64,000 nt of DNA from Emticicia aquatilis (GTDB taxonomy: Bacteria > Bacteroidota > Bacteroidia > Cytophagales > Spirosomataceae), in NCBI RefSeq assembly GCF_014644295.1, contig NZ_BMKK01000010.1:1-64000 (forward strand), in the 5' to 3' direction. Below, in pieces: positions 2,464-57,396 of the stretch. The notes under the pieces were generated by a model that made no database searches, was not told the DNA's origin, and was given only the letters and a program-made list of their open reading frames with translations. Numbering within the stretch: the stretch's first letter is position 1; every line of letters begins with the position of its first letter. The position numbers and the translations under genes were made by a program.

Positions 2464-2490
2464 TTCTAAATCTATTTATTATACTTTACA

Positions 2491-2522
2491 CGAAAGTAGG
2501 TAGAGTGTAGCAAATATTCAAA
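2491..2522 (-). promoter_or_regulatory. Bacteroidota-type promoter of the R-M pair
   Basis: On the minus strand TTTG (2519-2522) is followed after 20 nt by TACTTTCG (2491-2498), close to the Bacteroidota pattern TTTG-N19-21-TAnnTTTG (one mismatch in the second box). It lies 28 nt upstream of the methyltransferase start and explains how a reverse-oriented cassette is expressed. Confidence 0.5.
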
Positions 2523-2559
2523 TTTTTCTTTCTGTCTTAGGTTGAATTCAATTAGCATA

Positions 2560-2931
2560 TTCGATTGAAATAGTTTGACAGTTTAATTAAGTTTCGACAA
2601 TCTAACATTTCTAAGTTATCAAAACTTCAAACACATAGGCACTTTCGACGTTTCGGCAGCGTGGCATTTGCTCAAATTTCACTCCGAACAAAAAATCTTT
2701 TGCTTTTCAATATCTTTTTTCAGAACTTGGTATGCAGATTTGGTCAGCGACATTCGATTAGAGCAGGTTCTACCCTTTTTAGTCCTTAGTACGCACCATT
2801 TTTGGCGACAGTTTATCAGCGGTGGCACTCAAAGTTGGCTTCTCTCCAACACGAGCAAATAAGTAAAAGTTTGATATTCAACTAATTAACTCAAAATCCA
2901 ATGCCCATCTTCTTATTTGCGGTCGTTGGAA
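2560..2931 (+). repeat. Module B with attC2
   Basis: Begins with GAAATAGTTTGACAG; contains the family B core (TTTTGCTTTTCAATATC, AGAACTTGGTATGCAG, TCAGCGACATTCGATTAGAG). attC2 is 2845-2931, arms GCAAATAAG and CTTATTTGC, perfectly complementary. The module keeps plus orientation although the genes of this cassette are reversed. Confidence 0.85.
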
Positions 2932-2942
2932 AAATTTAAAAA

Positions 2943-4168: not shown

Positions 4169-4616
4169 AATCTTATCCTTTCCGATTTAATATCAATAAA
4201 ATCGTCAATTCGTATGCTGCTAAAATAGTTTGACCGTTTTACTTTGCACTCACAGGCACTTGCAACATAACAAATGCGAAGTTTTCAAGTTTTAGTTCTC
4301 GGCAAAATTTCAAACACATAGTTATCTCCGACATTTCCAATGCGTGGTATTTACTCAAATTTCGCTCCGAAAAATAAATTCTTTTGCTTTTCAATTTCTT
4401 TTTTCAGAACTTGGTATGCAGATTTGGTAAGCGACGTTTAGGCAGAGCTGTTTCTACGCTTTTCAATCCTTAGCACGCATCATTTCTGGCGACTTTTTAT
4501 CAGCGTTGGCATTCAAAGTTGGCTTGTCTCCAACACGAGCAAATAAGTAAAAGTTTAATAAATCAATTAATAAACTCAAAATCTAATGCCCATCTTCTTA
4601 TTTGCGGTCGTTGGAA
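4169..4616 (+). repeat. Module B with attC4
   Basis: Begins TAAAATAGTTTGACCG about 30 nt after the stop. Family B core at 4330-4450. attC4 is 4529-4616 with arms GCAAATAAG/CTTATTTGC. Confidence 0.85.
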
Positions 4617-5702: not shown

Positions 5703-6111
5703 ATCGTTAATTTTACATTATTAAAATAGTTTAACAGTTTTAGCTCAAAAGCTTGTTCGACTGGACAAATGCGAAGTTTTCAAGTGTAAGTTCTCAGTAA
5801 AATATCAAACACTTAGGCTCGTCCGACACTCAAAATGCGTGGTATTTTCTCAAATTTCATTCCGATTAATAAATTCATTTGCTTTTCAACTTCTTTTTTC
5901 AGAACTTGGTATGCAGATTTGGTTTGGGGACAATTAGGCCGAGCAGTTTCTACGATTTTTTTATCTTAGCACGCATCTTTGTTGGTGGACATCAAATCGG
6001 AGCGGTTCGCAAAGTTGGTTTGTCTCCAACACGAGCAAATAAGTAAAAGTTTGATAAATCAATAATTAACTCAAAATCCAATACCCATCTTCTCATTTGC
6101 GGTCGTTGGAA
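5703..6111 (+). repeat. Module B with attC5
   Basis: Begins TTAAAATAGTTTAACAG. Carries the later family B segment GGTGGACATCAAATCGGAGC. attC5 is 6025-6111; arms GCAAATAAG/CTCATTTGC contain one A-C mismatch. Confidence 0.85.
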
Positions 6112-6181: not shown

Positions 6182-7627
6182 ATGAATATTGAAATCACTG
6201 ACAATAAATACGATAATTTTATTAAAAAAGCTAATGAATTTAACCTTTTAGAAATATATAATTTTGAATTAATTGAAGATGTCGGTATTGAATCAGGTGG
6301 TCTGCATAGAGATTTTCGTGAATTGAAAAATACGGACGAATATTATTTTTTAGGAACGAAATTAAATGATATAAATGAAATCTGTATTCTTAACAAGGAG
6401 GCTGAAATTTTAATATCTCATAATAGTTTACGGGGAACATTTTATTTAAAAAAATCTCTTTTACACAAAGGGAAGGGAGCTTACGTGCCAAATTATGATT
6501 ATCGATTTTCATATTATGTGCGTGGGGGGTATATATTTATAGATATATTGGATGAATATAAATATGATCACTATCACGAATATTCTTACATGATTAGTCA
6601 TAGTGGAATATATATAAATAATGTTCACATATGGCCTATAATTCTTTATGATAAAACTATAATTCAGAATGGTGCTTCTCTTTTATTAAATAGAGACCTT
6701 GAAAAAGTTGGTAGAATTAAGAGTAGTTTAAGAAATATTCCAAGAGGTTATATTAGAACTGATAATGAAGTTTTTGATATAGAATTAAATGTTATAAATG
6801 AAGGCGATTTAAATTACTTTGAAGATGTTAAAGTCATAAGAAAATCTATAGAAAATTCATCATTATCAAATGCATATAAATATGAGTTTATTAATAGGGA
6901 TGGGCAATCTATCTTTAATATGCAATATGACTTCGCATTAGATTTTTATAACAATGTTTCATGGGTGTTAAATGGAAATAATTGGGAACTCATAGATAAA
7001 ATAGGAAATATTTTTGTAAAAATACCTTCAACTAAAGTAGTAAATGAGAATAAAAAAATTAAGTATACATTTAAGCCTTATTATCAGAATCTTTCTGAGT
7101 TTGATTATGGATTAATCGGTTGTAGTTTCTATCCAAATTTTAGAACAAATGGAGTTTTAAATAATGAATTATTATTTTTTAATGAGACAGTTGATGTTTA
7201 TTCTGATTCAAAAGTTGAGACAACACAAAATATTGTATTACTAAATAAAAATGGAGAAAGGCAGTTGATTTTTGATATAATAAATAATAGTTTGTTCCTA
7301 AAAAACAATAAATTTCGTCATGCATTTGAGGAAAAAAAACACTTTGCTATTAAAAATATATTTGATACCAAAGATAATTTTATTTTTATTTGTTACTTAA
7401 ACAAAGATGGCCTGCTTTATTTAAAGCCATCATGGTTTTTCGGGATAAATATTAAATTTATTACTACCAAAGAATTCTTAACAGATTCAGATATTTCTCA
7501 ACAAAATATAAAGATATTTGAAATTTTTGAAGCATCTGAAAAAATTAGTACCTTAAAAAATATTACAAATAAAAATGTCATTTTAGAAATAATAAATCAA
7601 GAATTATTAAGCTTTTTAACCAGTTAA
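6182..7627 (+). CDS. Hypothetical protein, 481 aa
   Basis: Large soluble protein with no signal peptide, membrane segment or catalytic motif that I recognise. It is rich in aromatic residues and asparagine. Several strands have the look NxxGE-x-LIFD-x-x-NNSLFLKN (around 355-385), suggesting an all-beta repeat architecture. The 70-nt leader between attC5 and the start is longer than in most cassettes and very AT-rich, so it could hold a promoter, but no clear TAnnTTTG box is present. Confidence 0.75.
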   Translation: MNIEITDNKYDNFIKKANEFNLLEIYNFELIEDVGIESGGLHRDFRELKNTDEYYFLGTKLNDINEICILNKEAEILISHNSLRGTFYLKKSLLHKGKGAYVPNYDYRFSYYVRGGYIFIDILDEYKYDHYHEYSYMISHSGIYINNVHIWPIILYDKTIIQNGASLLLNRDLEKVGRIKSSLRNIPRGYIRTDNEVFDIELNVINEGDLNYFEDVKVIRKSIENSSLSNAYKYEFINRDGQSIFNMQYDFALDFYNNVSWVLNGNNWELIDKIGNIFVKIPSTKVVNENKKIKYTFKPYYQNLSEFDYGLIGCSFYPNFRTNGVLNNELLFFNETVDVYSDSKVETTQNIVLLNKNGERQLIFDIINNSLFLKNNKFRHAFEEKKHFAIKNIFDTKDNFIFICYLNKDGLLYLKPSWFFGINIKFITTKEFLTDSDISQQNIKIFEIFEASEKISTLKNITNKNVILEIINQELLSFLTS

Positions 7628-8065
7628 AATTCAACGCGTATGCTGCTGAAGTAGTCTGACAGTTTTTAGTTCAAAGGCTCGTTCGACAAGCCGAAGTCGC
7701 TGGTTTTTCAGTTTTTCAAACGCATAATTTTTGGCGGACAGGACAGTTCTCTCCTACTCTATTCGGGGTTTTCTGCTCTCACAGTGGGTTTGCGAGAAGT
7801 CCTCTGAGTGGTATTTTCGCCAACTTTTCTTCTAATCGCAAAGTTTTATCCAACTCATTTGCTTTTTTGTATTTTTCCATGCAAATTTACTTTCAGCAGC
7901 GTAGTTATTAGGTTGGGTTCGTTGGCGTGCTTGGTGTCTTGCGACACCAAATCAGAGCGGTCGCAAAGTTATTCAAATCCAACACGAAGCATTATGTAAA
8001 GATCTGGTATTTAATCAATTAACTCTAAAACCACTCCAAAACCATCACAATGCTGGTCGTTGGAA
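7628..8065 (+). repeat. Module A with attC6
   Basis: Begins GAAGTAGTCTGACAG. Hairpin TTGGTGTC/GACACCAA, loop TTGC (7931-7950), 8 bp. attC6 is 7978-8065, arms GCATTATG/CACAATGC (one mismatch). Confidence 0.9.
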
Positions 8066-8080
8066 TTAAACAAAAGAAAT

Positions 8081-8677
8081 ATGCCTTCGATTGACGATTT
8101 AAAAATAGCTTATAGCAAACTTTCTAACAGCAGACTTTCTTCACTGCTTTCAGAAATTGATTCTATTTCACCAGAAGCACAGCAGGTTTTAAAAGATGAA
8201 GTTGAAAAAAGAAATTTGTCTAATACAAATTCTACTCCAATCACTGCAAGTGAACTTCCAAAGTTTATAGCAGAATCTTTGCAAACAGCATCACTCGGCA
8301 AGCGGTTTTTAAATTTCTTAATTGATTATTTAGCTTTTACTATATTTTTGATAATATTTTTTGTTTTAGGAGGCGATATTGTAGGTCTTGTTGATAACTC
8401 AATTTTTACATTTTTGTACTTCGTTTTAATATTTGGATTCCCTTTTGTAAACTATATTTATTTAGAAGGAAAATATGGCAAAAGTATCGGCAAATTTGTA
8501 ACAAAGACTTCAGTTGTAAAATTTGATGGCACAAAAATTAGTTTCAAGGATTCATTTATCAGAACTCTATGTAGGTTTATTCCTATTGATTTTATCTTTG
8601 CATTTATGGACGATACTTTAACTTTACATGATAAAATTAGTAAAACATATGTAAAAAATGACATTGAGAATCAGTAA
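8081..8677 (+). CDS. RDD family membrane protein
   Basis: 198 residues from ATG 8081 (the upstream TTG in the attC core is not used). After a helical N-terminal region of about 70 residues comes an RDD-type domain: GKRFLNFLIDYLAF, two or three membrane segments (about 85-145), GKSIGKFVTKTSVV, and a C-terminal HDKISKTYV, matching the family pattern in which charged residues sit in membrane helices. RDD proteins are integral membrane proteins of mostly unknown, sometimes transport-related, function. Single gene of its cassette. Confidence 0.85.
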   Translation: MPSIDDLKIAYSKLSNSRLSSLLSEIDSISPEAQQVLKDEVEKRNLSNTNSTPITASELPKFIAESLQTASLGKRFLNFLIDYLAFTIFLIIFFVLGGDIVGLVDNSIFTFLYFVLIFGFPFVNYIYLEGKYGKSIGKFVTKTSVVKFDGTKISFKDSFIRTLCRFIPIDFIFAFMDDTLTLHDKISKTYVKNDIENQ

Positions 8678-9115
8678 CCTATTTATCGAATGCGACTGAA
8701 ATAGTTTGACAGTTTTTGACTCAAAGTCTCGTTCGACAAGCCGAATTCGCTGGTTTTTCAGTATTCAAACGCATAATTTTTGGCGGACAGGACAGTTTTC
8801 TCCTACTCTATTTGGGGTTTTCTGCTCTCACAGTGGGTTTGCGACAAATTCTCTGCGTGGTAGTCTCTCCACTTTTTCTCCGACTATCAAATTATTTCTG
8901 CACTCGTTTGCTTTTTTAGATTTTTCCGTGCAAATTTACTCTCAACAGCATAGTTTTTGGGTTGGGTTCTTAGCATGCCTGCTGTCCGTTGGACAGCATA
9001 TTAGAGCGGTCGCAAAGTCCATTCAGTCCAACTCGAAAGCATTATGTAAAGGCTTGATAATTAACAAATTAACTCTAAAATCACTCCAAAACCATCATAA
9101 TGCTGGTCGTTGGAA
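8678..9115 (+). repeat. Module A with attC7
   Basis: Begins TGCGACTGAAATAGTTTGACAG. Hairpin TGCTGTCC/GGACAGCA, loop GTT (8980-8998). attC7 is 9027-9115, arms GCATTATG/CATAATGC. TGCG near the start can pair with CGCA in AAACGCATAATT about 75 nt downstream. Confidence 0.9.
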
Positions 9116-9160
9116 ATTTTACATTCTTATTGTTTAAGACAAATCATAATAAAAAAACCT

Positions 9161-9682
9161 ATGCGATTTTTAAGAATATTTATAGTTTTATCTATAATTG
9201 CTTTTTCATGTTCAAAAGAAAAGTTCAAATTAGACGAAGTTGAAGTTTCAAAAATAAAGTCCGAAGTTGTACCCATGACATGTGGAGAAAATACAATAAG
9301 CTCAAATACTTCATTTGGTTTTTTTTGCCCTGGACAACCCGAATCAGACGTTTATCAAGACAACGATAAAAACTTTAATTTCTATTATCATTTCTATGTA
9401 TCAAACAATCCTTATGGAAGGGAGCGATTTTCAGTAAACTTTATTATAAATTCATTGAACGTAGGAACTCAGTACCCTATTTATTCGCAAGTTAAAGCAT
9501 TAAATAAGAATGAGATACCATGGGTTGAATCTGGACAAAAAATACCAAGTAACAAACCAAAAAAAATCATTGTTTTAATAACAGAATCAACACCAACAAG
9601 TGTAAGTGGTTATTATAAAATAGAACTCACCAATGACGTAATTTTTGATGGATATTTTAATAAATTAAAAGTTAGTAATTAA
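9161..9682 (+). CDS. Lipoprotein, 173 aa
   Basis: Start chosen at ATG 9161 because it gives a typical lipoprotein signal (RFLRIFIVLSIIAFSC, cysteine 15). The upstream reading frame only covers attC7. The mature protein has few hydrophobic stretches and reads as a small beta-rich periplasmic or outer-membrane-attached domain (NFYYHFYVSNNPYGRERFSV, then YPIYSQV). No family recognised. Only gene in its cassette. Confidence 0.8.
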   Translation: MRFLRIFIVLSIIAFSCSKEKFKLDEVEVSKIKSEVVPMTCGENTISSNTSFGFFCPGQPESDVYQDNDKNFNFYYHFYVSNNPYGRERFSVNFIINSLNVGTQYPIYSQVKALNKNEIPWVESGQKIPSNKPKKIIVLITESTPTSVSGYYKIELTNDVIFDGYFNKLKVSN

Positions 9683-10118
9683 AAAATAATCGTATGCGAC
9701 TGAAATAGTTTGACAGTTTTAGCTCAAAGGCATACCCGACGAGCAAAATTCGCTGGTTTTTCCAATTTTCTAACGCATAGTTCTCTGTGGACAGGACAGC
9801 TTTTTGGCAGTTTTTTTGTATTTTCTGCTCTCAAAGTGGGTTTGCGACAGGAACTCTGTGTGGTAGTTACGCAACTCTTTCTCCGAAACTCAAAATATTT
9901 TGGTACAGCTTTGCTTTTTTCTATTTTTCCGTGCAATTTTACTTCCAGCACTCAGCTTTGCTGGATTGGGTTTGTTGGTGTGCAAGCCGTCCTTCGGACG
10001 TCTTATCAGAGCGGTCGCTAAGTTCATCAGTCCCAACGGAAGCATTATGTAAAGGTCTGATATTTAATAATTTAACTCTAAAACCACTCCAAAACCATCA
10101 CAATGCTGGTCGTTGGAA
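9683..10118 (+). repeat. Module A with attC8
   Basis: Begins GCGACTGAAATAGTTTGACAG. Hairpin CGTCC/GGACG, loop TTC (9988-10000), with an outer AAG/CTT extension across a C-T mismatch. attC8 is 10031-10118 (TCCCAAC start). Confidence 0.9.
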
Positions 10119-10129
10119 AATTTTCAAAA

Positions 10130-10726
10130 ATGGATGTAGAAAGTGGACATAGATTTACTAACGGAGCAGTTTGGAAGTACCATTTCCGTGACTCCATATT
10201 AGTCCATTGTCCTAAATGCAATAAACAGGCTACTGTAAAAGGGAAAATATCAGATGAAAAAGAAATTGAATGTAAGAATTGCTATTTTAAACAAGTAGGA
10301 CGAATTTCATTATTTAAGCCAATAATTGATTTTTACTGCTATGAATGCGGTAACAAAATTTATCAAGAACTTGCCTATATAAAATCAAAATTTGAAGCCT
10401 TAAAAATAAACTGTTCAAAATGTAAAAATGAACTTATAGCTAAACCTAAGTTTATTGAAGTTGAATTTATTTACAAAGGAACTGAAATAGTTGACCCTTA
10501 CTTCGGTTGTTCATTATGGCTACAAACTAAATTTAAAAATGATGTTTTATGGGCTTTCAACCATGAACATTTAAACTACATTAAAAACTATGTTACTGCA
10601 AAACTCCGTGAAAGACAAGGAAACGGTTATCAAACATTAGCAGAAGTTTTGCCTCAATTTATTAAATCATCCAAAAATAGAATAGGAATCTTAAAAGCAA
10701 TTGAAAAATTAAATACAATAGATTGA
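10130..10726 (+). CDS. Zinc-ribbon protein, 198 aa
   Basis: Contains CPKC and CKNC (about residues 27-49), then CYEC and CSKC (about 72-104), two consecutive four-cysteine zinc ribbons in the N-terminal half. The C-terminal half has WLQTKFKNDVLWAFNHEHLNYIKNYV and a helical tail. No nuclease or polymerase motif seen, so the partner (nucleic acid or protein) is unknown. ATG 10130 was preferred over an in-frame ATG inside attC8 at 10103. Confidence 0.8.
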   Translation: MDVESGHRFTNGAVWKYHFRDSILVHCPKCNKQATVKGKISDEKEIECKNCYFKQVGRISLFKPIIDFYCYECGNKIYQELAYIKSKFEALKINCSKCKNELIAKPKFIEVEFIYKGTEIVDPYFGCSLWLQTKFKNDVLWAFNHEHLNYIKNYVTAKLRERQGNGYQTLAEVLPQFIKSSKNRIGILKAIEKLNTID

Positions 10727-11120
10727 CAATTCATATAAACTACTTATTATCAAATAGATAGATTTACTCTACATCTTAGTAGCGAAGTTTTCAAACGTAA
10801 ATTCTCAGCAAACATTCTAACGCATAGTCATTTGCGACACTCAAAATGCGTGGTATTTTCTCAAATTTCACTCCAAACAATAAATTCTTTTGCTTTTCAT
10901 TTTCTTTTTTTAGAACTTGGTATGCAGATTTGGTGAGCGACATTAGATTGGAGCAATTTCTACAATTTTTTCCACCTTGGCACTTTTAGTTGTTGGTGGA
11001 CATTCGATTGGCGAAGCTTTCAAATTGTGTGAGTCCCAACGCTGCAAATAAGTAAAAGTTATTAATTTTAAACCAAAATACCCAACTCCTCGCCCATCAT
11101 CTCATTTGCGGACGTTGGAA
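10727..11120 (+). repeat. Module D with attC9
   Basis: Family B-like first half (TGCGTGGTATTTTCTCAAA, AGAACTTGGTATGCAG) joined to a different end (GGCGAAGCTTTCAAATTGTGTGAG). attC9 is 11034-11120, starts TCCCAAC; arms GCAAATAAG/CTCATTTGC, spacer unlike family B. Confidence 0.85.
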
Positions 11121-11798: not shown

Positions 11799-12248
11799 AG
11801 GCTACATCAGAAGGAATTTGGCAGTTTTTTCTACTCAAACTCACATTCGACAAACAAAATTCGCTAAATTTTCAACAATTTCAAACGCCTATTTTTTTGC
11901 GACGAAACAGCACTCTGGTTCGCAAAGTAGGGTTTTCTACTTGCAAAGTTGGCTGGCGACAAGTTCTCTGAGTGGTATTTTTGCCAACTTTTCTTCGATT
12001 CTCAAAGTTTTACTCAACTCATTTGCTTTTTTGTATTTTTCCATGCAAATTTACTTCAAGCATTCAGCTTTGCTGGCTTGGGTTAGTTGGCGTGTCAGCC
12101 GTCCTTCGGACGTCTTATCAGAGCGGTCGCAAAGTCAGTTTAGTCCAACTCGAAAGCATTGTGTAAAGGCTTGATATTTAATCGCAGCGGCGAACCGTAA
12201 ATTAACTCTAAAATCACTTCAAAACCATCACAATGCTGGTCGTTGGAA
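11799..12248 (+). repeat. Module A with attC10 (spacer insertion)
   Basis: Lacks a clear AAATAGTTTGACAG box. Hairpin CGTCC/GGACG (12100-12112). attC10 is 12144-12248, arms GCATTGTG/CACAATGC. It is about 16 nt longer than its relatives because a GC-rich CGCAGCGGCGAACCG block sits in the spacer near 12183-12198. Confidence 0.88.
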
Positions 12249-13490: not shown

Positions 13491-13904
13491 AAAAACTAAA
13501 CAGCAATTCAGACAATTTTATCTTAATTTGTAAAGGGCAATTTTATTAAGAATATTGAACAGAAAGGTTTCAAGGTTTTATTTATTATGTCCATAGTTAC
13601 CCCCGACAATCTATCAGCGAAGCGTTTAAATGTTAATTCTTTGCAACCTTTTTTAAGCATTTTGTTCTCAAAGTTGGTGGGCGACAGGAAATTAGAATAA
13701 TAATTCAAAGGCTTTTTTCTCGAAAACTTTGCGGTTTATACTATGTTTTTTATATCTTTGGGTGGCTTATTTTTCGGGCGACACTCGGAATAAAGAGCTT
13801 GCAAAGTTGGTTTATCTCCAACGTTAGCAAGCAAGTAAAAGTTTGATAATCAACTAATTAACTCAATATTCGCTCAAAAATCATCTTGCTTGCGAGCGTT
13901 GGAA
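13491..13904 (+). repeat. Module C with attC11
   Basis: Family C: ATCTATCAGCGAAGCGTTT, CTCGAAAACTTTGCGG, TATCTTTGGGTGGCTTA, CGGGCGACACTCGGAA. attC11 is 13817-13904, arms GCAAGCAAG/CTTGCTTGC. No family A hairpin. Confidence 0.85.
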
Positions 13905-14382: not shown

Positions 14383-14836
14383 GTTTTCTTCTTGAAATCG
14401 TATGTTTAAAACTGAAATAGTTTGATAATTCTAAGCACAAAATCTCGGTCGACACGCAAAATTCGCCGGATTTTCAATTTTTCAAACGCATAGTTTTCGC
14501 TTGACAGGACAGTTCTCCCCCACTCTATTTTTGGGTTTTCTGCTCTTACAGTGGGCTGGCGACAAATCCTCTGAGTGGTATTTTTGCCAACTTTTCTTCG
14601 ATTCACAAAGTTTTATTCAACTCATTTGCTTTTTTGTATTTTTCCGTGCAATTTTACTTCAAGCATTCAGCTTGGCTGGCTTGGGTTCTCTGGCGTGCAA
14701 GCCGTCCTTCGGACGTCTTATCAGAGCGGACTCAAAGTTGGTTCCTCTCCAACTCGAAAGCATTGTGTAAAGGTCTGATGCTTTATTAATTAACTCTAAA
14801 TTTACTCCAAGTCCATCACAATGCTGGTCGTTGGTG
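14383..14836 (+). repeat. Module A with attC12
   Basis: Begins CTGAAATAGTTTGATAATT. Hairpin CGTCC/GGACG (14703-14715). attC12 is 14748-14836, arms GCATTGTG/CACAATGC; the end box reads GTTGGTG instead of GTTGGAA. Confidence 0.88.
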
Positions 14837-16685: not shown

Positions 16686-17207
16686 AAAAACAGTAAACAA
16701 TAGCTTTGCCTGTGGCGGGGTGATGTACAAACTTTAAACCTATTATTTTCATTGAACTTTAGAAATAAATGAAACTTTTTACACAATAACCCACCCGTAT
16801 GCAAAGCCCGAAACCGTTATATGCAAAGAATTTTTTTAGTTCAAAAACTTATGCAAGTGAACTAAAGCGAAGTTTTAGATTGTTAGTTCTCAGCAAACTA
16901 TCAAATGCATAGTCATTTGCGACACTTAAAATGCGTGGTATTTACTCAAATTTCACTCCGAAAAATAAATTCTTTTTCTTTTCAATTTCTTTTTTCAGAA
17001 CTTGGTGTGCAGACTTGGTCAGCGACTTACGATTAGAGAAGTTTCTATGATTTTTTTCATCTTAGCACGCAGCTTTGTTGGTGGACATCAAATCGGAACG
17101 GTTCGCAAAGTTGGTTTGTCTCCAACACAAGCAAATAAGTAAAAGTTTGATAATCAATAATTAACCCAAAATCCAATCCCAAATCTTCTTATTTGCGGTC
17201 GTTGGAA
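16686..17207 (+). repeat. Unique spacer, then module B with attC13
   Basis: The first about 150 nt (to 16840) do not match the other modules and hold no gene. Family B then follows (AAATGCGTGGTATTTACTC, AGAACTTGGTGTGCAG). attC13 is 17121-17207, arms GCAAATAAG/CTTATTTGC. Confidence 0.83.
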
Positions 17208-18393: not shown

Positions 18394-18397
18394 AATT

Positions 18398-33404: not shown

Positions 33405-33423
33405 TTTTTTTTAAAATAATACA

Positions 33424-34210: not shown

Positions 34211-34223
34211 CGAGAACAAAAAT

Positions 34224-35307: not shown

Positions 35308-35331
35308 AAATAAAAACCGAAATTTAAAAAT

Positions 35332-37200: not shown

Positions 37201-37221
37201 TGACAAAAATCCATATAACAA

Positions 37222-39960: not shown

Positions 39961-39982
39961 AAATTTCACTTTCTAAATAAAT

Positions 39983-40853: not shown

Positions 40854-40862
40854 ATTTTTCAA

Positions 40863-41660: not shown

Positions 41661-41671
41661 TTTTAAAGCAG

Positions 41672-42316: not shown

Positions 42317-42751
42317 TTTGGATATGGATTAATACCATCTTTTGTAACTTAGATAATTTCTTCTAATGAAAAGCAAGCATCGCTAAATTTTCAAAAATTT
42401 AAACGCATATTTCTCGGGTGACAGGACAGTTCTCTCCTACTCCATTTAGGGTTTTCTGCTTGCAAAGTTGGCGTCCGACAAATCCTCTGAGTGGTATGTT
42501 TGCCAACTTTTCTTCGATTCTGAAAGTTTTATCCAACTCATTTGCTTTTTTGTATTTTTCCGTGCAATTTTACTTCCACCATTCAGCCTTGCTGAGTTGG
42601 TTTGGTTGGCGTGTCAGCCGTCCTTCGGACGTCTTATCAGAGCAGACGCAAAGTTCATCGACTCCAACTCGAAAGCATTGTGTAAAGGCTTGATATTTAA
42701 TAAATTAACTCTAAAATCACTCCAAAACCATCACAATGCTGGTCGTTGGAA
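42317..42751 (+). repeat. Module A with attC34
   Basis: No AAATAGTTTGACAG box; enters the family at GCATCGCTAAATTTTC. Hairpin CGTCC/GGACG (42619-42631). attC34 is 42663-42751, arms GCATTGTG/CACAATGC. Confidence 0.88.
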
Positions 42752-42917
42752 CGAAAAATAAAAAATAAAAAAATAAATTCCCCCCAATTAGCTACACATC
42801 TCAATTCTTCAGATAGTATAAATTAATAATGAAAGTACCGAATAATAAAAATGCTACACCTATTCTTGAATTATAGAAAAACATCTGCAAAATTTACAAA
42901 AAAAACTTAATAATATC

Positions 42918-44267
42918 ATGAAAAACAAAATCATAATTTTCTTGTTATTTTTTCCATTTATAGTTTCAGCTCAAACAGTAGAAACACAAGAAGAAAAAGA
43001 TACGAAAGCAGCAGCTACCAAACAATTCAAAAAAGATAGTACTGAATTAGCCAGAAAGAAGACATTAACGGGATTGGCAAATGATATTAATGGCCTTGAA
43101 AGAACAGATGATGCTGCTATATCAAAAGCAAAGTTAGATGAAATATCTAATAATTTAAAAGCATTTGGAGAGAATAAACTAACTCCATTAAGTGGAGATA
43201 TTACCATTTCAGAAGGGAAATTTTCAACTGCTGAAACAAAGGCTCTTGTTGACGATGCACTCAATGGAGCAATTCAACAATTTAAAAATAGTTTAACAGC
43301 TTCAATAGGTGATAAAGAAGTATTAGTTTACGATGCTTCACATTTTAAAGGTATTTATCAATATAGAATAATAGAATCTGAACTAAAAAAGATTAGTTCT
43401 AACTATGAGGATTTAAAAAATGAAATTACTCCACCTGTAGTCGAGCCATCTTCAGTTGCTGCAGGCATTGCTTTGGGTGTAAGTGTAGCTCGAGCAGTAG
43501 CCGATTTAGCTACAATTTTTAAGACAGAAACCCAGATAACTGTAAATAATGAGACAGTTGCAGAAAGCTATATTATATCAAAAATTGTCAAAGAATTAAA
43601 TAACAAAAAATTTTATTACCCTTCTCTTTTCCCTATAAATCCTACCGATGATTCAGAGTTATTGAAGAAGCTTAGCGAAATTGAGGCTTCCAAAGATAAA
43701 ATTTTAGCTGGGATAAAAAAGTTTAAAAAAGACAAAAAAATTAATGAAACAAACGAAAACATTGATAAGAAAAACACTGAATTGGCTAAAAAAAATGTAG
43801 AATTACTAAAAGCAAAAAAAGATAGTCCCAAAGATACAATAAACATAAAAAAAGAAATTAATATTATTAACGGCGAAATAGCTGTATTGAAACAAAGTAT
43901 CGAAGCAGTATCTAAAACTCTTAGCGGATTCGAAGAGGAATTAAAAAAAATAAATACAGAATATGACTTAATAACAGAAAGTTTAAAACAGGCTATAAAT
44001 AAAGAAACCAATGTAACTGCAATGGGTATATTATTAAGTGTTGAACAAATTTATAAAAAGTTAAAAACAGATAGTGCCTTAACACTAAGAATTTCCGCCA
44101 ATGGTATTGGAACAACTATTGTGAAAAAGAGTCAATGGAAAACCAAGTTATCATCTACTGGGGCTCTCCAAATTGAATACTTGCTTTTTGAAAAAAGTGG
44201 CAAAATTCTGGACTCTGACGCATTTAATAAGTATGGAGAGAAGAGCTTCAACAATAATTTAAGATAA
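42918..44267 (+). CDS. Secreted coiled-coil protein, 449 aa
   Basis: Signal peptide KNKIIIFLLFFPFIVSAQT. The mature protein is lysine/glutamate-rich; a long coiled coil spans about 265-365 (KKNTELAKKNVELLKAKKDS; INGEIAVLKQSIEAVSKTLSGFEEELKKI). A less polar segment (VAAGIALGVSVARAVADLATIF, about 178-200) is reminiscent of pore-forming helices. It is followed after 2 nt by a subtilisin-like protease gene, so the two form an operon. The leader of 166 nt contains no other gene. Confidence 0.8.
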   Translation: MKNKIIIFLLFFPFIVSAQTVETQEEKDTKAAATKQFKKDSTELARKKTLTGLANDINGLERTDDAAISKAKLDEISNNLKAFGENKLTPLSGDITISEGKFSTAETKALVDDALNGAIQQFKNSLTASIGDKEVLVYDASHFKGIYQYRIIESELKKISSNYEDLKNEITPPVVEPSSVAAGIALGVSVARAVADLATIFKTETQITVNNETVAESYIISKIVKELNNKKFYYPSLFPINPTDDSELLKKLSEIEASKDKILAGIKKFKKDKKINETNENIDKKNTELAKKNVELLKAKKDSPKDTINIKKEINIINGEIAVLKQSIEAVSKTLSGFEEELKKINTEYDLITESLKQAINKETNVTAMGILLSVEQIYKKLKTDSALTLRISANGIGTTIVKKSQWKTKLSSTGALQIEYLLFEKSGKILDSDAFNKYGEKSFNNNLR

Positions 44268-44269
44268 TT

Positions 44270-45562
44270 ATGAAGACAAGGAGCAGGGTGATAATACGTG
44301 TAAAGGAAAATAGTGATTTCAATAATTCTTTTGAAATATTGAAAAGCAGGAACTTAAATCCTTCAAAAGTTTTTTCATTTCAAAATGACCCTTTTGAAAT
44401 AGAGCGTAATTTTCCAATAGAGAATCTTGATTCAAGTGGTTATTTATACGATAATGAATATTATCGTAAACTTGGTAAACGTCAAAAAGACTACTATCGA
44501 ACCTATAAAATAGATTTTACAGATGATGAATCTGCAAAAGAATATTGTTTAGCATTGCAAAAAAACGAGAATATTGATGATGCCTATTTAGATGGTTATG
44601 TTCACTTAGCAACAAATCCCAATGATAGTTTACTTAGTAAACAGATAGCACTTATAAATATTCAATGTGAACAAGCATGGGATATTTCGAGTGGAAATCC
44701 AAATATTATCGTTTCAGTAATCGATACAGGAATCAATGATAATCATGAAGATTTAAGAGGGAATATCTTTGTTGATAATACAGGAAAACGAGGCTTTAAT
44801 TTTACAGATGATGCTGATTTCAATGATAGCAGGCCTGATAAAGGGCACGGTACCTGTGTTGCAGGATTAATTGCAGCAAGTTGGAATAATAGTCGAGGGA
44901 TAGCTGGAGTTGCACCTAATTGTAGAGTAATTAATTGCAAGGTTTTTCCTACGAATGATATAACAGCTTTTTTTTCAGACTGCCAAGAAGCAATTAATAC
45001 TTCAATTAGAAATGGTGCAAAAATTCTTAATTGCAGTTGGGAGATTAATTTGGATAAAGATGATAAGATTGTAACTGATTTCATTGATTTTATCAATAAA
45101 GAAGCAACCAAATCAGTTTTTGTGTTTTCTTCAGGCAATAAAAACAAAAATATAGCTGAAACGGCATGGAGCAAATTAGAAAATTGTTTGATTGTCGGTG
45201 CCATGAATATTAATGATAATATCTGGACTGAAAACGATAAGAAAGGCTCAAACTTTGGTCAGAATATAATATATAGCTACGGTTCAGGGGTGTTCGGTTT
45301 AACAAATGAAAATAATGATTCCTACAACGTTTTAGATTCAGGGACTTCATTTGCGGCTCCCCATGTGTCAGGTATTTGTGCTCTAATTCTAAGTTATAAT
45401 CCAACAATTTCACCAAAACAAGTGAGAGACATTATTATTGATTCTCGAGAAATGGTTCTGGGAATGAGTTCAACGTTAGGTATCGGCAAAGTTAATGCAC
45501 TAAAAGCCTTAAATTTGACCCAACAACGGTTTGCAAAACTAAGTCCAAATTTATTTTCTTAA
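44270..45562 (+). CDS. Subtilisin-like serine protease (S8)
   Basis: 430 residues. Catalytic triad visible: D152 (SVIDTGIN), H193 (GHGTCVAG), S360 (SGTSFAAPH). An N-terminal stretch of about 130 residues (RVIIRVKENSDFNNSFEIL...) looks like an I9-type pro-domain. No signal peptide is visible, which is unusual for this family and hints at an intracellular role. Co-encoded with the secreted coiled-coil protein 2 nt upstream, its possible substrate or partner. Confidence 0.9.
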   Translation: MKTRSRVIIRVKENSDFNNSFEILKSRNLNPSKVFSFQNDPFEIERNFPIENLDSSGYLYDNEYYRKLGKRQKDYYRTYKIDFTDDESAKEYCLALQKNENIDDAYLDGYVHLATNPNDSLLSKQIALINIQCEQAWDISSGNPNIIVSVIDTGINDNHEDLRGNIFVDNTGKRGFNFTDDADFNDSRPDKGHGTCVAGLIAASWNNSRGIAGVAPNCRVINCKVFPTNDITAFFSDCQEAINTSIRNGAKILNCSWEINLDKDDKIVTDFIDFINKEATKSVFVFSSGNKNKNIAETAWSKLENCLIVGAMNINDNIWTENDKKGSNFGQNIIYSYGSGVFGLTNENNDSYNVLDSGTSFAAPHVSGICALILSYNPTISPKQVRDIIIDSREMVLGMSSTLGIGKVNALKALNLTQQRFAKLSPNLFS

Positions 45563-46019
45563 CCCGTATGATAATGAAATGTCTTGACACTTTTAGGCGT
45601 ATGCTGCTAAAATAGTTTGACAGTTTTAGCCAACCTCAGACGTGCCGAAACCGCTGCTTTTCAAGAATTTCAAACGCCTAATTTTTTGCGACGAGGCAGC
45701 ATTTGGATTCGCCATGTAAATTTTCCTGCTTGCAAAGTGGGCTGGCGACGATTTCTCTGCGTGGTATGTTTGCCAACTTTTTTTCGATTTGCAAAGTTTC
45801 ACCCAACTCATTTGCTTTTTTGTATTTTTCCGTGCAATTTTACTTTCAGCAATCGACTTGGCTGGCTTGGGTTGGTTGGCGTGCAAGACGTTCTTCGGAC
45901 GTCTTATCAGAGCGGTCGCAAAGGTTATCAGTTCCAACACGAAGCATTATGTAAAGGTCTGTTATTTATTAAATTAACTCCAAAATCACTCCAAAAACCA
46001 TCATAATGCTGGTCTTTGG
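45563..46019 (+). repeat. Module A with degenerate attC35
   Basis: Begins GGCGTATGCTGCTAAAATAG. TAGGCGT can pair with ACGCCTA (about 75 nt downstream). Hairpin AAGACGTTC/GGACGTCTT, loop TTC (45885-45905), with one T-G pair. attC35 is 45933-46019; its right core reads CTTTGGC instead of CGTTGGA, so it is probably inactive. Confidence 0.85.
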
Positions 46020-46325
46020 CGGTTTCTCTCGCAAGTCTTTCTTTTCAGTTTTTTCGACAACGCCAAAATCAAAGAATTCAACCTTTTTCTCGAAAACTTC
46101 GCCCCTATTTTCGGTAATTTTCTCGTCAATTTCTCGCATTTTTCGCTCATAATTCTCGCAAATGTCTCGCTTTTTCTCGCCAATTTTAAGCATAAAACTT
46201 AAAAGACTTTTTTCAAATTCTACGCAATCAAATTTCATACTTTTAAGACTTTTAGCAGTTATTTTCAGCATTTCTCTCTCAATTCTCGCTCTATTTTTGC
46301 CTTTTTCTCCATTTTTGTCAAGCAT
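46020..46325. other. Gene-poor segment rich in CTCGC repeats
   Basis: Between the damaged attC35 and the next module. No plus-strand gene. A 118-codon minus-strand frame (45969-46325) exists, but it reads as charged low-complexity (EKKRDICENYERKMREIDEKITENRGE) and runs through the attC, so I do not count it as a gene. The plus strand has repeated TTTTCTCGC, TTCTCGC and TTTTTCTCG words, suggesting local expansion. Confidence 0.5.
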
Positions 46326-46718
46326 TTAGGCACTTTCGACACGCAAAATTCGCTGGTTTTTCAATTTTTCAAACGCATAGTTCTCAGTGGACAGGACAGC
46401 TTTTTGGTATTTTATTTAGGTTTTCTGTTCGCAAAGTTGGTCTGCGACATTTATAATGCTTGGTAGTTTCGCAACTTTTGCTCCGAATCGCAAAATATTT
46501 CTAAACTCGTTTGCTTTTTTAGTTTTTTAAGTGCTAATTTACTTTCAGCAATCAAGTTTTTGGGTTGGGTTCGTTGGCGTGCTGCTGTCCGTTGGACAGC
46601 AAATTAGAGCGGTCGCTAAGTCCATTTTCTCCAACGCTAAGTATTATGTAAAGGCTTGATAATTAACAAATTAACTCTAAAACTACTCCAAAAACCATCA
46701 TAATACTGGTCGTTGGAA
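46326..46718 (+). repeat. Module A with attC36
   Basis: Starts at GGCACTTTCGACACGC. Hairpin TGCTGTCC/GGACAGCA, loop GTT (46583-46601). attC36 is 46630-46718, arms GTATTATG/CATAATAC, the same compensated variant as attC19. Confidence 0.9.
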
Positions 46719-46765
46719 ATTTTTCAACAAAAAAGTATCTTTAAATTTAAAACACAAAAAATAAT

Positions 46766-47266
46766 ATGGAAGATTTAAGGTACGATTTTTCAAAAGAAGT
46801 TTATAAAAACGAATGTGATAGAGAAAATGGATTAAACAATAAATCTCAAATCTATTTATCTCTTTTGACAATAATTTTATCATCAATAATTTTTAATATT
46901 AAAGATGTATATGATTTAATAAAAATGCCTGAATTTAGCAATATAAACAATACAATTATTGGGGTTTTGGTATCAATATTAGTTACATCATCCATAGCCA
47001 TATCAATGATATTTTTATCCATGAGGCTATTTGAATATAAAAATCCTTATTTATTTGAGACTCTAAAAAAATTCTATGAAAAGAATGAATATGACAAAAA
47101 AATATTTGACTTAGAAACGTCTAAAAATTATTTAAAGGCTGCAAGAAGTAATGAGAGAGTAAATGATTCAAAAGCGAAGTTTTTAAGTTATTCTTATTTT
47201 TTTATTATACTATCTTTTATTTTAAGTGTTGTTTTTTTAACCTTAATTATAACTGTAAAAAAATGA
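46766..47266 (+). CDS. Membrane protein, 166 aa
   Basis: Three hydrophobic segments (about 28-45, 65-90, 140-164) separated by a charged helical stretch (FYEKNEYDKKIFDLETSKNYLKAARSNERVNDSKAKF). Stop overlaps the start of a small downstream gene (ATGA). No family recognised. The leader has a TATCTTTA near 46736 which resembles a TAnnTTTG box. Confidence 0.75.
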   Translation: MEDLRYDFSKEVYKNECDRENGLNNKSQIYLSLLTIILSSIIFNIKDVYDLIKMPEFSNINNTIIGVLVSILVTSSIAISMIFLSMRLFEYKNPYLFETLKKFYEKNEYDKKIFDLETSKNYLKAARSNERVNDSKAKFLSYSYFFIILSFILSVVFLTLIITVKK

Positions 47267-47436: not shown

Positions 47437-47838
47437 TTTTTTTGTAATTATATACAGTAGAAGAAACCAAAAAAGTAAAATCATAAACTTGACAATTTAA
47501 AAGTTTTTAATTAATTTAGATTGTTGTTTATGGGTGTTCATATTCACGAGCGACAGGATATTCTAACAAAATTTGGCCGTGGAGTTAGGTATATCACTTG
47601 GACAGGATATTTGGAGTGTTTTCTTTAGTTCAAAAGCACTTCAAATATCACTCCGACATTTGATTAGAGCAGATTCTATGATTTTTACCATCTTAGCATG
47701 CAGCTTTGTTGGTGGACATCAAATCGGAGCGGTTCGCAAAGTTGGTTTGTCTCCAACACGAGCAAATAAGTAAAAGTTTGATAATCAATTAATTAACTCA
47801 AAATCCAATCCCCATCTTCTTATTTGCGGTCGTTGGAA
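47437..47838 (+). repeat. Shortened module B with attC37
   Basis: Only the second half of family B is intact (from CACTCCGACATTTGATTAGAG). The first part (to about 47640) is diverged. attC37 is 47752-47838, arms GCAAATAAG/CTTATTTGC. Confidence 0.83.
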
Positions 47839-48514: not shown

Positions 48515-48950
48515 CAGTCCGTATGCTGCTACAATAGTTTAACAGCTTTTAACTCAAAGGCTCAGTCGACACGCAAAATTCGCTGGGTTTTCAACTTTTC
48601 AAACGCCTAATTTTTTGCGACGAGGCAGCATTTTGGTTCGCCAAGTAAGATTTTCGGCTTGCAAAGTTGGCTGGCGACAATTTCTCTGAGTGGTATGTTT
48701 GCTAACTTTTCTTCGGCTCGCAAAGTTTTATCCAACACATTTGCTTTTTTGTATTTTTCCGTGCAATTTTACCTCCAGCATCCAGCTTTGCTGGACTGGG
48801 TTGGTTGGCGTGTCAGCCGTCCTTCGGACGTCTTATCAGAGCGGACGCAAAGTTAGTTTAGTCCAACTCGAAAGCATTGTGTAAAGGCCTGATGTTTTAT
48901 TAATTAACTCTGAAATCACTCCAAGTCCATCACAATGCTGGTCGTTGGAA
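48515..48950 (+). repeat. Module A with attC38
   Basis: Begins GCTACAATAGTTTAACAG. Hairpin CGTCC/GGACG (48818-48830). attC38 is 48862-48950, arms GCATTGTG/CACAATGC. Confidence 0.9.
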
Positions 48951-49636: not shown

Positions 49637-50089
49637 TAAAAAAATACTTTGTCGTTTTGTATCGGCTCTTAGTTATTGCCGACAACATATCAAAAAAACA
49701 AAATACAAGTTTGCAAAAAAACTCAGTAAATTGTGCCAGTTTTTAGGCTACAGCGACACGATGAAAGCGAAGTTTTACAAGGCTAATTTCGCAAAAACTT
49801 CTACGCAAATTGTCCCGCCTAGAGGCTCGTGCGACACGATGAAAGCGAAGTTCTAAGGCTTTTTTTTCGCAAAAACCTCTCACCCACTTTTTTAAAATTT
49901 GTAAAGTTGGTTTTCAGCAATTATATTTGTTAGGCTGGATTGACTGGTTGGCTTTTGCGTCTGGTGACGCAATATTAGAGCGGTCGCAAAGTTAGCTTCG
50001 TCCAACACGAAGCATTATGTAAAGGCTTGATAATAAACAAATTAACTCTAAAATCACTCCAAAAACCATCATAATGCTGGTCGTTGGAA
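49637..50089 (+). repeat. Diverged module A with attC39
   Basis: The first 250 nt differ from family A and contain an internal duplication: CGACACGATGAAAGCGAAGT at about 49754 and 49830. Hairpin TTGCGTC/GACGCAA, loop TGGT (49955-49972). attC39 is 50001-50089, arms GCATTATG/CATAATGC. Confidence 0.85.
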
Positions 50090-50637: not shown

Positions 50638-51017
50638 AATCGTATGCGACTGAAATAGTTTGACAATTTTTATAATTTGCGACACACAAACATCGCTAAG
50701 TTTTCTAAAAATCAAACGCATAGTCATTTGCGACACTCAAAATGCGTGGTATTTTCTCAATTTTCACTCCGAAAAATAAATTCTTTTGCTTTTCAATTTC
50801 TTTTTTCAGAAATTGGTATGCAGATTTGGTGAGTGACATTCGATTAGAGCAGTTTCTACGATTTTACCATCTCAGCACGCAGCTTTATTGGTGGACATCT
50901 AATCGGAACGGTACTCAAAGTTGGTTTGTCTCCAACACGAGCAAATAAGTAAAAGTTTGATAATCAAATAATTAACTCTAAAATCAATTCCAATCTTCTC
51001 ATTTGCGGTCGTTGGAA
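50638..51017 (+). repeat. Module B with attC40
   Basis: Begins GCGACTGAAATAGTTTGACAA. Family B core at 50740-50840, GGTGGACATCTAATCGGAAC. attC40 is 50931-51017, arms GCAAATAAG/CTCATTTGC. Confidence 0.88.
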
Positions 51018-51642: not shown

Positions 51643-52073
51643 TAATTAAAAATCACTTCTCAAATTTCGTTTTGAGCTAGTTAGTGACGTTAGCTTAACG
51701 AAGTTTTCAATCGTTAATTCTCAGCAAAATATCAAACGCATAGTTATCGTCGACATTTTTAATGCGTGGTATTTGCTCAAATTTCACTTCGACAAATAAA
51801 TTCTTTTGCTTTTCCATTTCTTTTTTCAGAACTTGGTATGCAGATTTGGCTCGGGACAGTTTATTAGCGGGTTGTGGTTGGTGTGCAAGTTTGGTTTTCA
51901 GCATCCTATTTTGTGGGGTTGGTTTGGTTCGTGACTCAAATTGTCCTGCGGACAATTTATTAGCGAGGTTCGCCAAGTTCAAAAAGTCCAACTTACGCAT
52001 TATGTAAAAGTTCATAATTAAAATCCTTATAATCAATGCTTTACCAAAATCATCACAATGCTTTTGGTTGGAA
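51643..52073 (+). repeat. Module B/A chimera with family E attC41
   Basis: Family B first half (AGAACTTGGTATGCAG, then GCTCGGGACAGTTTATTAGC as in attC17's module). Hairpin AAATTGTCC/GGACAATTT, loop TGC (51938-51958), 9 bp. attC41 is 51987-52073 with family E right end TTTTGGTTGGAA. Confidence 0.87.
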
Positions 52074-54924: not shown

Positions 54925-55365
54925 AATAAAAAATATTCGTGTTCTGCTAAAATAGTTTGATTTTTTTAGTTCATCGGCTTGGTTGACACGCAGAATCCGC
55001 TGGTTTTTGATTTTTCAAACGCATATTTCTCGTGTGACAGGACAGTTCTCTCCTACTCAATTTAGGATTTTCTGCTTGCAAAGTGGGTTGGCGACAAGTT
55101 CTCTGAGGGGTATTTTTGCCAACTTTTTTCCGAAACTCAAAGTTTTATTCAACTCATTTGCTTTTTTGTATTTTTCCATGCAAATTTACCTTCAGCAGCA
55201 TACTTCTTGGCTTGGGTTCTTGGCGTGCCTGCCGTCCGTTGGACGGCATATCAGAGCGGTCGCAAAGTTATTCGAGTCCAACGTAAAGCATTATGTAAAG
55301 GTCTGATATTTAATAAATTAACTCTAAAATCACTCCAAAAACCATCATAATGCTGGTCGTTGGAA
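54925..55365 (+). repeat. Module A with attC42
   Basis: Begins GCTAAAATAGTTTGATTTT. Hairpin TGCCGTCC/GGACGGCA, loop GTT (55230-55248). attC42 is 55277-55365, arms GCATTATG/CATAATGC. Confidence 0.9.
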
Positions 55366-55412
55366 ATGTGGACGAGTATTTTCAAAATTATATAATATCT
55401 ACAATCACATAA

Positions 55413-56879
55413 ATGAAACTAAATATTACACTACTTACATCTATATTTCAAATATTAATTTTTCAAAAAATGTACTCACAAATTCCACATATTGAGTGGC
55501 AAAGATGCTATGGAGGGACAGGAAATGAGTATATAAGAGACCTAATTCCAACTAAGGATGGTAATTATATTGTAATGGGTAGCACTACTTCTCTTGATGG
55601 TGACGTTGGACCACGCATAATTACTGATGCAGACGCTTGGGTCCTAAAATTTAATAAACGAGGGGATATTATTTGGTCTAAAACTTTATTTAATAGAGGA
55701 TACTATGGTGTAGCTCTTGCAGGAAACGAAACTGAAAATGAGGACATATTGATATCAGCTTACGTGTATTCTAGTGACGCATGGGGGTTTAAACTAAATA
55801 AAAATGGTAATAAAATTTGGAGTAAATATGGTATCCCATTGGTCAGTCAACAAATTATTAAAGATTTTGAACCTAACAAATTTGTAGGGATTAGAAATAC
55901 TTATAATATAAATCATCAATCCAGCTCTGACTTCACATTAGCCAAAATTGATACAACAGGATTGGCTTCCTATGATAATAAATATGGAGGAAATCGTACT
56001 GAAAATGTTTACTCAGTTACAAAAACAACAGATAATTGCTATATCATGGTTGGGTGGACTTTTTCAAATAATAGTGGAGATGTTGGAATTAATAATGCTC
56101 GAGAGGACAGTGGCGATATTTGGGTTGTCAAAATTAATTCTACTGGAAATATTATTTGGCAAAAAAGTTTGGGTAAAGCAAATGTTTGGGAAGAGTGCTT
56201 TTCAGTTGTTTCAGATGGAGCAGGTGGGTGTGTTTTAGCGGGTACTTTTTATCCAAGTACCTATGATGCAATTCCTGACATTGGCATCTATCATCTCGAT
56301 AATTTAGGTAATCTTGTATGGCAAAAAAACTATGGAGGAACTGGCTCAGAAAGACCTACTTGTATTGCAAAAGATATTGACGGTGGTTATGTAGTTTCAG
56401 CTAGGACAAACTCAACTAATGGAAATATTTCTGGTTATCATGGAGGAGATTATGATGGATGGTTACTAAAAGTTGATAGGAATGGTAATTTAGTTTGGCA
56501 AATATGTTTAGGAGGTAGTTCAGTTGATGAGCTTCAAAGAGTATATGTTACTCCCGGAGGAGACTATATTGTAGCAGGCTATACAAAAAGTAATGATGGA
56601 GATGTAAGCGGATATCATGGTAGTAATCCAAATCAAGAATGGGGGGACTCTTGGATTTTACGCTTATCAAATTCATATTGTTCAAATTCAGAATATATTA
56701 CTTCTACAATTTCTAATTCACAAACTTTTAAGACAAATAGTACAATAACTGCATTAAATACTATAACTAATACTGGAAATGTTATTTACAATGCAAAAAA
56801 TAACATTATTCTGAATCCAGGCTTTCAAGTAAGTCAAAATGGAAAGTTCTATGCGGTTGTTGATGGATGTGATAATTAA
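55413..56879 (+). CDS. Secreted repeat protein, probable C-terminal 3-coathanger stack
   Basis: Signal peptide (LNITLLTSIFQILIFQKMYSQ). Residues about 25-430 are about seven repeats of the type W-x-K/Q-x-x-GG-x-x-x-E-x-x-x-S-x-x-x-x-DGGYI-x-x-G-x-T-x-S-x-DGD (beta-propeller-like). The last 60 residues (FKTNSTITALNTITNTGNVIYNAKNNIILNPGFQVSQNGKFYAVVDGC) match the 3-coathanger stack domain of Bacteroidota surface proteins. Likely exported and surface-located, possibly via a type IX system. An adhesive or scaffolding role is inference. Confidence 0.85.
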   Translation: MKLNITLLTSIFQILIFQKMYSQIPHIEWQRCYGGTGNEYIRDLIPTKDGNYIVMGSTTSLDGDVGPRIITDADAWVLKFNKRGDIIWSKTLFNRGYYGVALAGNETENEDILISAYVYSSDAWGFKLNKNGNKIWSKYGIPLVSQQIIKDFEPNKFVGIRNTYNINHQSSSDFTLAKIDTTGLASYDNKYGGNRTENVYSVTKTTDNCYIMVGWTFSNNSGDVGINNAREDSGDIWVVKINSTGNIIWQKSLGKANVWEECFSVVSDGAGGCVLAGTFYPSTYDAIPDIGIYHLDNLGNLVWQKNYGGTGSERPTCIAKDIDGGYVVSARTNSTNGNISGYHGGDYDGWLLKVDRNGNLVWQICLGGSSVDELQRVYVTPGGDYIVAGYTKSNDGDVSGYHGSNPNQEWGDSWILRLSNSYCSNSEYITSTISNSQTFKTNSTITALNTITNTGNVIYNAKNNIILNPGFQVSQNGKFYAVVDGCDN

Positions 56880-57396
56880 AAAACTCACACGTCCTCCCAA
56901 TTTGGTACTTTTTACAAACAGAATAAATACGAGTTTTTCAAGGGGTTTTTATATTTTACTGACGACAGTAAAGCCTTTTTTTAGTTCATTGGGGGTCTTT
57001 TTATATCGCTTCAGACAGGCAAGTAGCGAAATTCTAAAAGCTGCTTGTTTTATTCCTAAAAGTAGCTATTTTTATTCTGCATTTCGGGCGTTCAAAATTA
57101 GTTTGGGGACATCAAAAATGCGTGGTATTTGCTCAAATTTCACTCCGACAAATAAATTCTTTTGCTTTTCATTTTCTTTTTTCAGAACTTGGTATGCAGA
57201 TTTGGTCAGCGACTTTCGATTAGAGTAGTTTCTACGATTTTTATCATCTTAGCACGCAGCTCTGTCGGTGGACATCAAATTGGAGCAGTTCGCATAGTTG
57301 GTTTGTCTCCAACACGAGCAAATAAGTAAAAGTTTGATAAATCAATTAATAAACTCAAAATCTAACCCCGAATCTTCTCATTTGCGGTCGTTGGAA
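56880..57396 (+). repeat. Unique spacer, then module B with attC43
   Basis: The first about 230 nt have no family match and no gene; CAGACAGGCAAGTAGCGAAAT is the first recognisable piece. Family B then follows (GCGTGGTATTTGCTCAAA, AGAACTTGGTATGCAG). attC43 is 57308-57396, arms GCAAATAAG/CTCATTTGC; it is the last intact site. Confidence 0.85.

Follow-up and report, generated by a model that had tools for sequence, protein, structure and literature searches.

GAC boxes at a fixed distance from attC in a conserved non-coding module of an integron-like cassette array in Emticicia aquatilis

We analysed a stretch of 64,000 nucleotides, called the window below, that opens contig C10 (NZ_BMKK01000010.1) of the 6.75 Mb genome of Emticicia aquatilis. 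Gene cassettes and attC recombination sites form a long array in it. Between gene and attC, most of these cassettes carry related non-coding DNA of ~290 nt (median), here called the module. We found that the module bears GACA-type boxes, the nearest of which stands at a nearly constant distance from attC in six Emticicia genomes, and our tentative interpretation is that the boxes are accessory sites for recombination in an integron-like system.

A cassette array extending over two contigs

The array spans window positions 1–57,395. The original prediction had let it begin at position 2464; we found that it is already running at position 1, the start of the contig, and that it continues on contig C19, which has 9 further attC sites at its end and a recombinase gene before them. 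C19 probably abuts C10. At E≤1 a profile search returned 52 attC-like sites, of which the window contains 43 and C19 contains 9; 50 of the 52 had E≤0.01, and the 50 cassette intervals analysed here each end in a site of the latter set. The attC sites are ~98 nt long and consist of R'' (NCCAAC), R' (GTTGGA) and an L box, both arms of which change together; their mean folding z was −2.1 in the set belonging to module family A and −1.8 in that of family B. Two features by which integrons are recognised were looked at and found, namely attC with inverted R and L boxes able to fold, and an array of mainly single-gene cassettes with all attC in one orientation. Of 48 intervals, 25 had a longest open reading frame (ORF) that started within 30 nt after the preceding attC. 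When longest ORFs were compared across the array, similarity was seen in only 2 pairs.

A type II restriction-modification pair, a CfrBI-like endonuclease and an N4/N6 methylase, was found on the − strand at 192–2463, inside one cassette interval. Two neighbouring genes at 42918–45562 also share one interval; for the product of the second, the models matched were those of subtilases and of IetS-type defence. At 12132–12247, the loop of one attC contains an extra GC-rich insert of ~16 nt.

The module and its boxes

A module had been predicted before almost every attC, and this was borne out. Profiles of at least three families (A, B and C) gave a match before attC in 48 of 50 intervals (A 24, B 21, C 3), a count that is circular because the profiles were built from these same copies; 41 of the 48 matches reached at least 200 bits (33 of 41 intervals in the window, 8 of 9 on C19). 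In stretches from other genomes, 68 of 77 attC had a module match on their 5' side, or 116 of 127 when the own genome is included, and some module matches there had no adjoining attC match.

All module–attC units in the window lie on the + strand. Those of family A were located by the profiles at 1–181 (5' part lost at the contig start), 3349–3760 (with a divergent attC, E 0.015), 7649–8064, 8699–9114 (the reference copy), 9703–10117, 11813–12247, 14415–14834, 17621–18014, 27171–27566, 29694–30112, 30709–31126, 31358–31777, 33793–34209, 34890–35306, 40455–40852, 41242–41659, 42363–42750, 45610–46019, 46325–46717, 48533–48949 and 54950–55364. Family B was found at 2568–2930, 4223–4615, 5724–6110, 10754–11119, 16834–17206, 21811–22193, 24934–25308, 32434–32820, 37695–38075, 39574–39959, 50653–51016, 51683–52072 and 57008–57395, the last of which contains the last attC found; lesser matches to this family were a weak partial module (57 bits) with a divergent attC at 19024–19320, a partial one (150 bits) at 20485–20783, a 3' part (59 bits) at 47654–47837 and a weak match (32 bits) at 49734–50088. 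Family C was present at 13509–13903 and 26401–26728 (128 bits). Two divergent attC, at 24041–24135 and 37109–37199 (both +), have a GAC box and no module match, and the attC profile gave one more divergent attC-like site (E 0.015) at 33313–33402 (+).

The distance from stop codon to attC was 253–368 nt in 40 of 46 cases. Both a module match and a forward ORF no shorter than 60 codons were present in 44 cassettes. In 31 of them the match started −16 to +31 nt from the end of the stop codon, and in 13 it started 32–407 nt past it; only ORFs running at most 60 nt into the module had been considered, a choice that favours starts near the stop codon. Such starts were also seen in copies without the first 14–33 model positions. 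The cassette with large genes on the − strand (192–2463) keeps a module before its attC, suggesting that the module is tied to attC and not to a gene's 3' end. Furthermore, attC scores are low at the two attC that lack a module match, and they correlated with module scores (Spearman 0.46). The module is thus best explained as a cis DNA element that belongs to attC rather than to the preceding gene.

Ordered motifs within the module had also been claimed, and their matches were far above chance: AAATAGTTTGACAG (≤2 mismatches) had 24 matches, 22 on the + and 2 on the − strand, against 1.6 expected, AGAGCGGTCGCAAAGT had 22, all +, against 0.0, and GCGTGGTA had 15, all +, against 0.33. The motif order is common to families A and B. 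What did not hold was a single motif set for all copies, since AAATAGTTTGACAG (≤3 mismatches) was found in 26 of 52 upstream stretches; modules without it start later, yet still near the stop codon.

The position of the boxes was then considered relative to R''. We found GAC beginning 35–38 nt upstream of R'' in 49 of 49 own attC in which NCCAAC was found (1 of the 50 was not assessed), as GACA in 26, GACG in 18, GACT in 4 and GACC in 1, compared with a mean of 1.5 and a maximum of 6 in 500 shuffles. The own module copies are related, and the 49 are therefore not independent cases. Across six Emticicia genomes, GAC began at −38 to −35 in 112 of 115 assessed attC: 49/49 in the own genome, 14/14 in E. 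oligotrophica, 23/25 in G007, 10/10 in G009, 12/13 in G010 and 4/4 in G005 (12 of 127 attC, with no NCCAAC found or too near an end, were left out). Further boxes in modules of the own genome lie near −296, −243 and −186 in type A, before the one near −36, and near −266, −204, −98 and −38 in type B; a spacing of 53–62 nt is frequent, but gaps of 106 and 150 occur. In the reference copy (+ strand), the boxes are CGACA at 8734–8738, GGACA at 8785–8789 (the first of GGACAGGACAG) and GCGACA at 8841–8846, and the R''-proximal GAC at 8992–8994 is 35 nt upstream of the NCCAAC at 9027. CGACA ranked third in strand asymmetry in the window (69 versus 5) and seventh on C19 (15 versus 0).

The spacing was extended by ten loci from other genera of the same GTDB family (Spirosomaceae), those with a name being from Spirosoma telluris, S. 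sordidisoli and Rudanella. In these Spirosoma-type loci GACA started at −34 to −32 in 56 of 58 attC found by pattern, and boxes recurred after R' at +37 to +39 (41), +92 to +94 (33) and +147 to +150 (25), so that both sides of attC are flanked, with 252 boxes against 26 reverse complements within 300 nt. An unbiased count placed CGACA and GACAG as the top two strand-asymmetric intergenic 5-mers in 4 of 5 Spirosoma-type arrays and as second and third in the fifth; among arrays of other lineages, CGACA or TGACA was in the top eight of 3 of 12, with at most 11 copies. A hairpin for each CGACA unit of the Spirosoma type was considered and rejected, as no diagonal of covarying columns appeared in 222 windows.

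Module copies had a median identity of 79% over 356 pairs, and the 15 closest pairs were 88–94% alike over 65–100% of their length, with no gene similarity seen. Allowing gamma rate variation raised the likelihood by 399 in family A (44 rows) and by 249 in family B (40 rows), and the near-invariant blocks included GCGACA, GTGG and a T-rich tract, TTTGCTTTTTT-n2-ATTTTT, which column rates place at 8907–8940 (+) in the reference copy. The module is non-coding. As had been predicted, frames are broken between copies: 110 of 114 indels (22 own type A copies compared with one reference copy) had lengths not divisible by 3, and the three codon positions had substitution rates of 0.241, 0.241 and 0.219, showing no 3-base periodicity. 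A coding module had been a candidate: 23 type A modules give 69 forward frames, and 13 of these stayed open over at least 80 codons, against 8.6 in shuffles. The frame-breaking indels and the lack of periodicity ruled it out.

A structured RNA spanning the module, another part of the original prediction, was not supported. Rfam gave 0 matches at gathering in the window and 0 at E≤1 in 7600–10150 (2.5 kb). With 12 modules per family, folding z was near zero on the forward strand (−0.39 in A, +0.17 in B; 0 of 24 below −2) and −0.97 and −0.19 on the reverse strand (3 of 24 below −2). Covariation was confined to attC and one short type A hairpin, GCTGTCC/GGACAGC, at 8981–8997 (+) in the reference copy, whose 3' arm contains the GAC box. 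Of the 21 pairs tested, 8 had changed in both partners: the attC L box accounts for 5 and the hairpin for 3, which is 3 of its 7 pairs; many copies of the hairpin have UUCG loops. Paired cells made up 94% in this structure of attC plus hairpin against 27–50% when it was slid, the structure being derived from the same alignment. One of five measures, the number of further pair types, was not above shuffles (489 of the 500 reached its value or more), and by eye the hairpin is absent from most family B copies. Long-range helices proposed by RNAalifold from A (44 rows) and B (40 rows) on both strands, such as GCGAC/GTCGC in A, were rejected, breaking in 1–13 of 44 rows per pair without covariation.

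The recombinase and the range of the system

The gene on C19 encodes a 390-aa tyrosine recombinase, lies on the attC strand and points with its 3' end towards the array. TIGR02249 matched it in two pieces (positions 2–179 and 237–314) at 192.6 bits against a cut-off of 265, and no TIGR02249 match above the cut-off was present anywhere in the genome. The IntI-specific insertion, a further feature by which integrons are recognised, is absent from the array recombinase; it is visible in the printed L236 sequence. The span from GKG to HxxRH was 71–72 residues in 17 of 23 clade members and not measurable in 6, and this span lacks a good IntI control, one IntI row being shortened (76) and the other not measured. 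In a small tree the array recombinase groups beside IntI, which is a placement and no proof, the tree having only 2 IntI rows (one shortened) and 2 Xer rows; rows host_L015 (empty) and host_L010 (fragment) were left out of it, and L176, L200 and L205, which stop within the match, were left out of the alignment. The enzyme has an extra N-terminal domain that is weakly like HARP/XPB/UvsW, the search with this domain giving no match at E≤0.001, and a fold search with the whole recombinase returned Xer, IntI and lambda Int, which says little about the domain. The stretch that separates the recombinase gene from the first cassette contains a core equal to attC R', the presumed attI. By eye, an inverted repeat is seen just upstream of the presumed attI core at L141, L143 and L145, with arms that differ between genomes (GCGGAACTAA/TTAGTTCCGC, CACTAAATG/CATTTAGTG).

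Besides the own genome, 5 of the 10 other members of the genus among 98 related genomes scanned had the module, and 2 further genomes gave weak matches; those genomes of the genus that have modules have also retained the array recombinase, whole or in part. On plasmids it occurred in two records, both of Emticicia oligotrophica: pEMTOL01 and a second with a 46-nt match. The former (L239, typed conjugative) contains part of the E. oligotrophica cassette array with module–attC units, and such plasmid-borne cassettes are a possible route of cassette spread. Three stretches of viral contigs contain an exact T-rich 20-mer. Among the hosts, Emticicia oligotrophica and Spirosoma are not known to be pathogenic.

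Another tyrosine recombinase gene, a 295-aa open frame with 34–35% identity to the array enzyme, begins 132–135 bp from an attC match at four places in E. oligotrophica (L076 4199–5023, 10016–10840 and 19190–19999; L078 13181–14005). Its annotated copy adjoins an IS91 family transposase gene on plasmid NC_018742.1 (53183–55179; Emticicia oligotrophica DSM 17448), and it is possibly a mobile element targeting attC sites. Recombinases of the same clade as the array enzyme are followed by repeat-rich DNA at L196 and L203 (Cohnella) and at L184 and L193 (Flavobacterium), with 98, 89, 48 and 73 self-hits, respectively, in up to 10 kb and with other asymmetric words; three attC-like sites are readable at L196. 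The repeat scan past the recombinase covered 61 of 80 loci, many contigs ending soon after the gene, and 5 of the 61 had more than 40 self-hits (L184, L193, L196, L200, L203), most others having 0–9.

What the module may do

We cautiously prefer the interpretation that the boxes are attC-anchored accessory recombination sites, because they are tied to attC in position, presence and range and because the recombinase has an extra domain. The original prediction had offered this as one of three options, and it is the one favoured by the box position locked to attC and the co-occurrence with the recombinase. The GACA-type boxes, one fixed 35–38 bp before R'' and the others upstream, several of them 53–62 bp apart, would be accessory ('arm-type') sites used by the array recombinase. 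Its N-terminal domain or a host partner would bind them, and binding may load the recombinase, help attC fold or order synapsis with attI. Given the GAC box at a fixed distance from attC, the module probably helps the recombinase to find or use attC. A qualification to the co-occurrence is G005, in which the recombinase piece has only 30 residues.

The main rival is an expression element, whereby the 3' module would signal to RNA polymerase on behalf of the next cassette, as a promoter, by antitermination or in another way, and every gene would be expressed wherever it lands. We regard this as unlikely but serious, for module and attC sit upstream of the next gene, and the ORF starts close behind the preceding attC leave little room for a promoter there. 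Matches to the Bacteroidota-type promoter motif were at chance (29 versus 26.4 expected), as were sigma70-type promoters (98 versus 87, standard deviation 9, in 20 kb scanned) and intrinsic terminators with a G+C-rich stem and T run (9 versus 9.2 expected, in 27001–47000). These scans are weak evidence, because prediction failed in Vibrio cassettes: passages of PMC11014356 report that gene-less Vibrio cassettes do carry promoters, which software predicted poorly. The expression view fares less well with the nearest box, which is locked to attC within 4 nt, and with the Spirosoma-type boxes that flank attC on both sides. More doubtful still is that module and attC are a donor piece left over from cassette genesis, joined to many genes and carried along as a functionless passenger. 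Unrelated genes bearing modules up to 94% alike would fit, as would starts near the stop codon even where the first model positions are missing; the strongly uneven rates with near-invariant blocks indicate constraint instead, and motif order is shared by A and B and box spacing is kept across genera.

A structured RNA or a processing or termination element made from each cassette is very improbable. The covarying type A hairpin with its UUCG loops speaks for it, but the hairpin is missing in most B copies, the module folds weakly compared with attC, Rfam has no match, and the terminator count gives no support to the termination element that the original prediction had allowed. That prediction was to be given up if there were no significant covariation and if the copies could be explained by one recent tandem amplification with neutral drift. 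Covariation is indeed lacking over most of the module. Amplification, to which the relatedness of the copies might point, has next to no probability left and is already contradicted: alike modules on unrelated genes and very uneven column rates reject it together with neutral drift, homogeneous rates being rejected, and modules occur in six Emticicia genomes.

Compared with sedentary chromosomal integrons, the Emticicia array is alike in its one-orientation attC and mainly one gene per cassette, in attC with R (CCAAC/GTTGG) and inverted, covarying L boxes, and in a recombinase at one array end with a presumed attI core equal to attC R'. It differs in having a recombinase with an additional N-terminal domain and no IntI-specific insertion, whose gene lies on the attC strand with the 3' end towards the array, and in that most cassettes end in a ~300-nt box-bearing non-coding module. 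The direct repeats DR1 and DR2 near the core of attI1 resemble the boxes; they lie in attI, whereas the Emticicia boxes are found around attC, and inspection by eye showed none in the presumed attI. To our knowledge, accessory sites are known only from attI. Phage and integrative and conjugative element (ICE) integrases with arm-binding domains likewise combine an extra N-terminal domain with short sites that recur at defined distances from the core; these enzymes use attP/attB and not cassette arrays, and the Emticicia N-domain is only weakly HARP/XPB/UvsW-like. Passages of PMC8946536 describe DR1/DR2 as supplementary binding sites favouring attI1 × attC, and passages of PMC8138268, in which the word HARP is absent, describe arm-binding domains of tyrosine recombinases. 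According to parts of PMC9668308 the IntI-specific domain is required of an integron, and surveys with this requirement would probably label the array a cluster of attC sites lacking integron-integrases (CALIN), from which it differs in having a candidate integrase of another subfamily. One complete Bacteroidetes integron, that of Salinibacter ruber, is named in passages of PMC9024848. We found no such system described in the open-licence PMC literature, judged by title or abstract start and with preprints outside.

A wider reading, possible though doubtful as a whole, is that of a second kind of integron. An IntI-sister clade spanning Bacteroidota, Spirochaetota and Bacillota would run arrays now filed as integrase-less, a DNA-structure-recognition domain would replace the IntI-specific insertion, and Emticicia and Spirosoma attC would be those with an array of arm sites. 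The array recombinase is a candidate enzyme for some attC clusters called integrase-less in surveys and a natural comparison for the role of the IntI-specific insertion. How attC is selected and how genes acquire an attC are open integron questions; the boxes locked to attC suggest accessory sites, and a conserved module near the stop codons of dozens of unrelated genes offers a handle on cassette formation.

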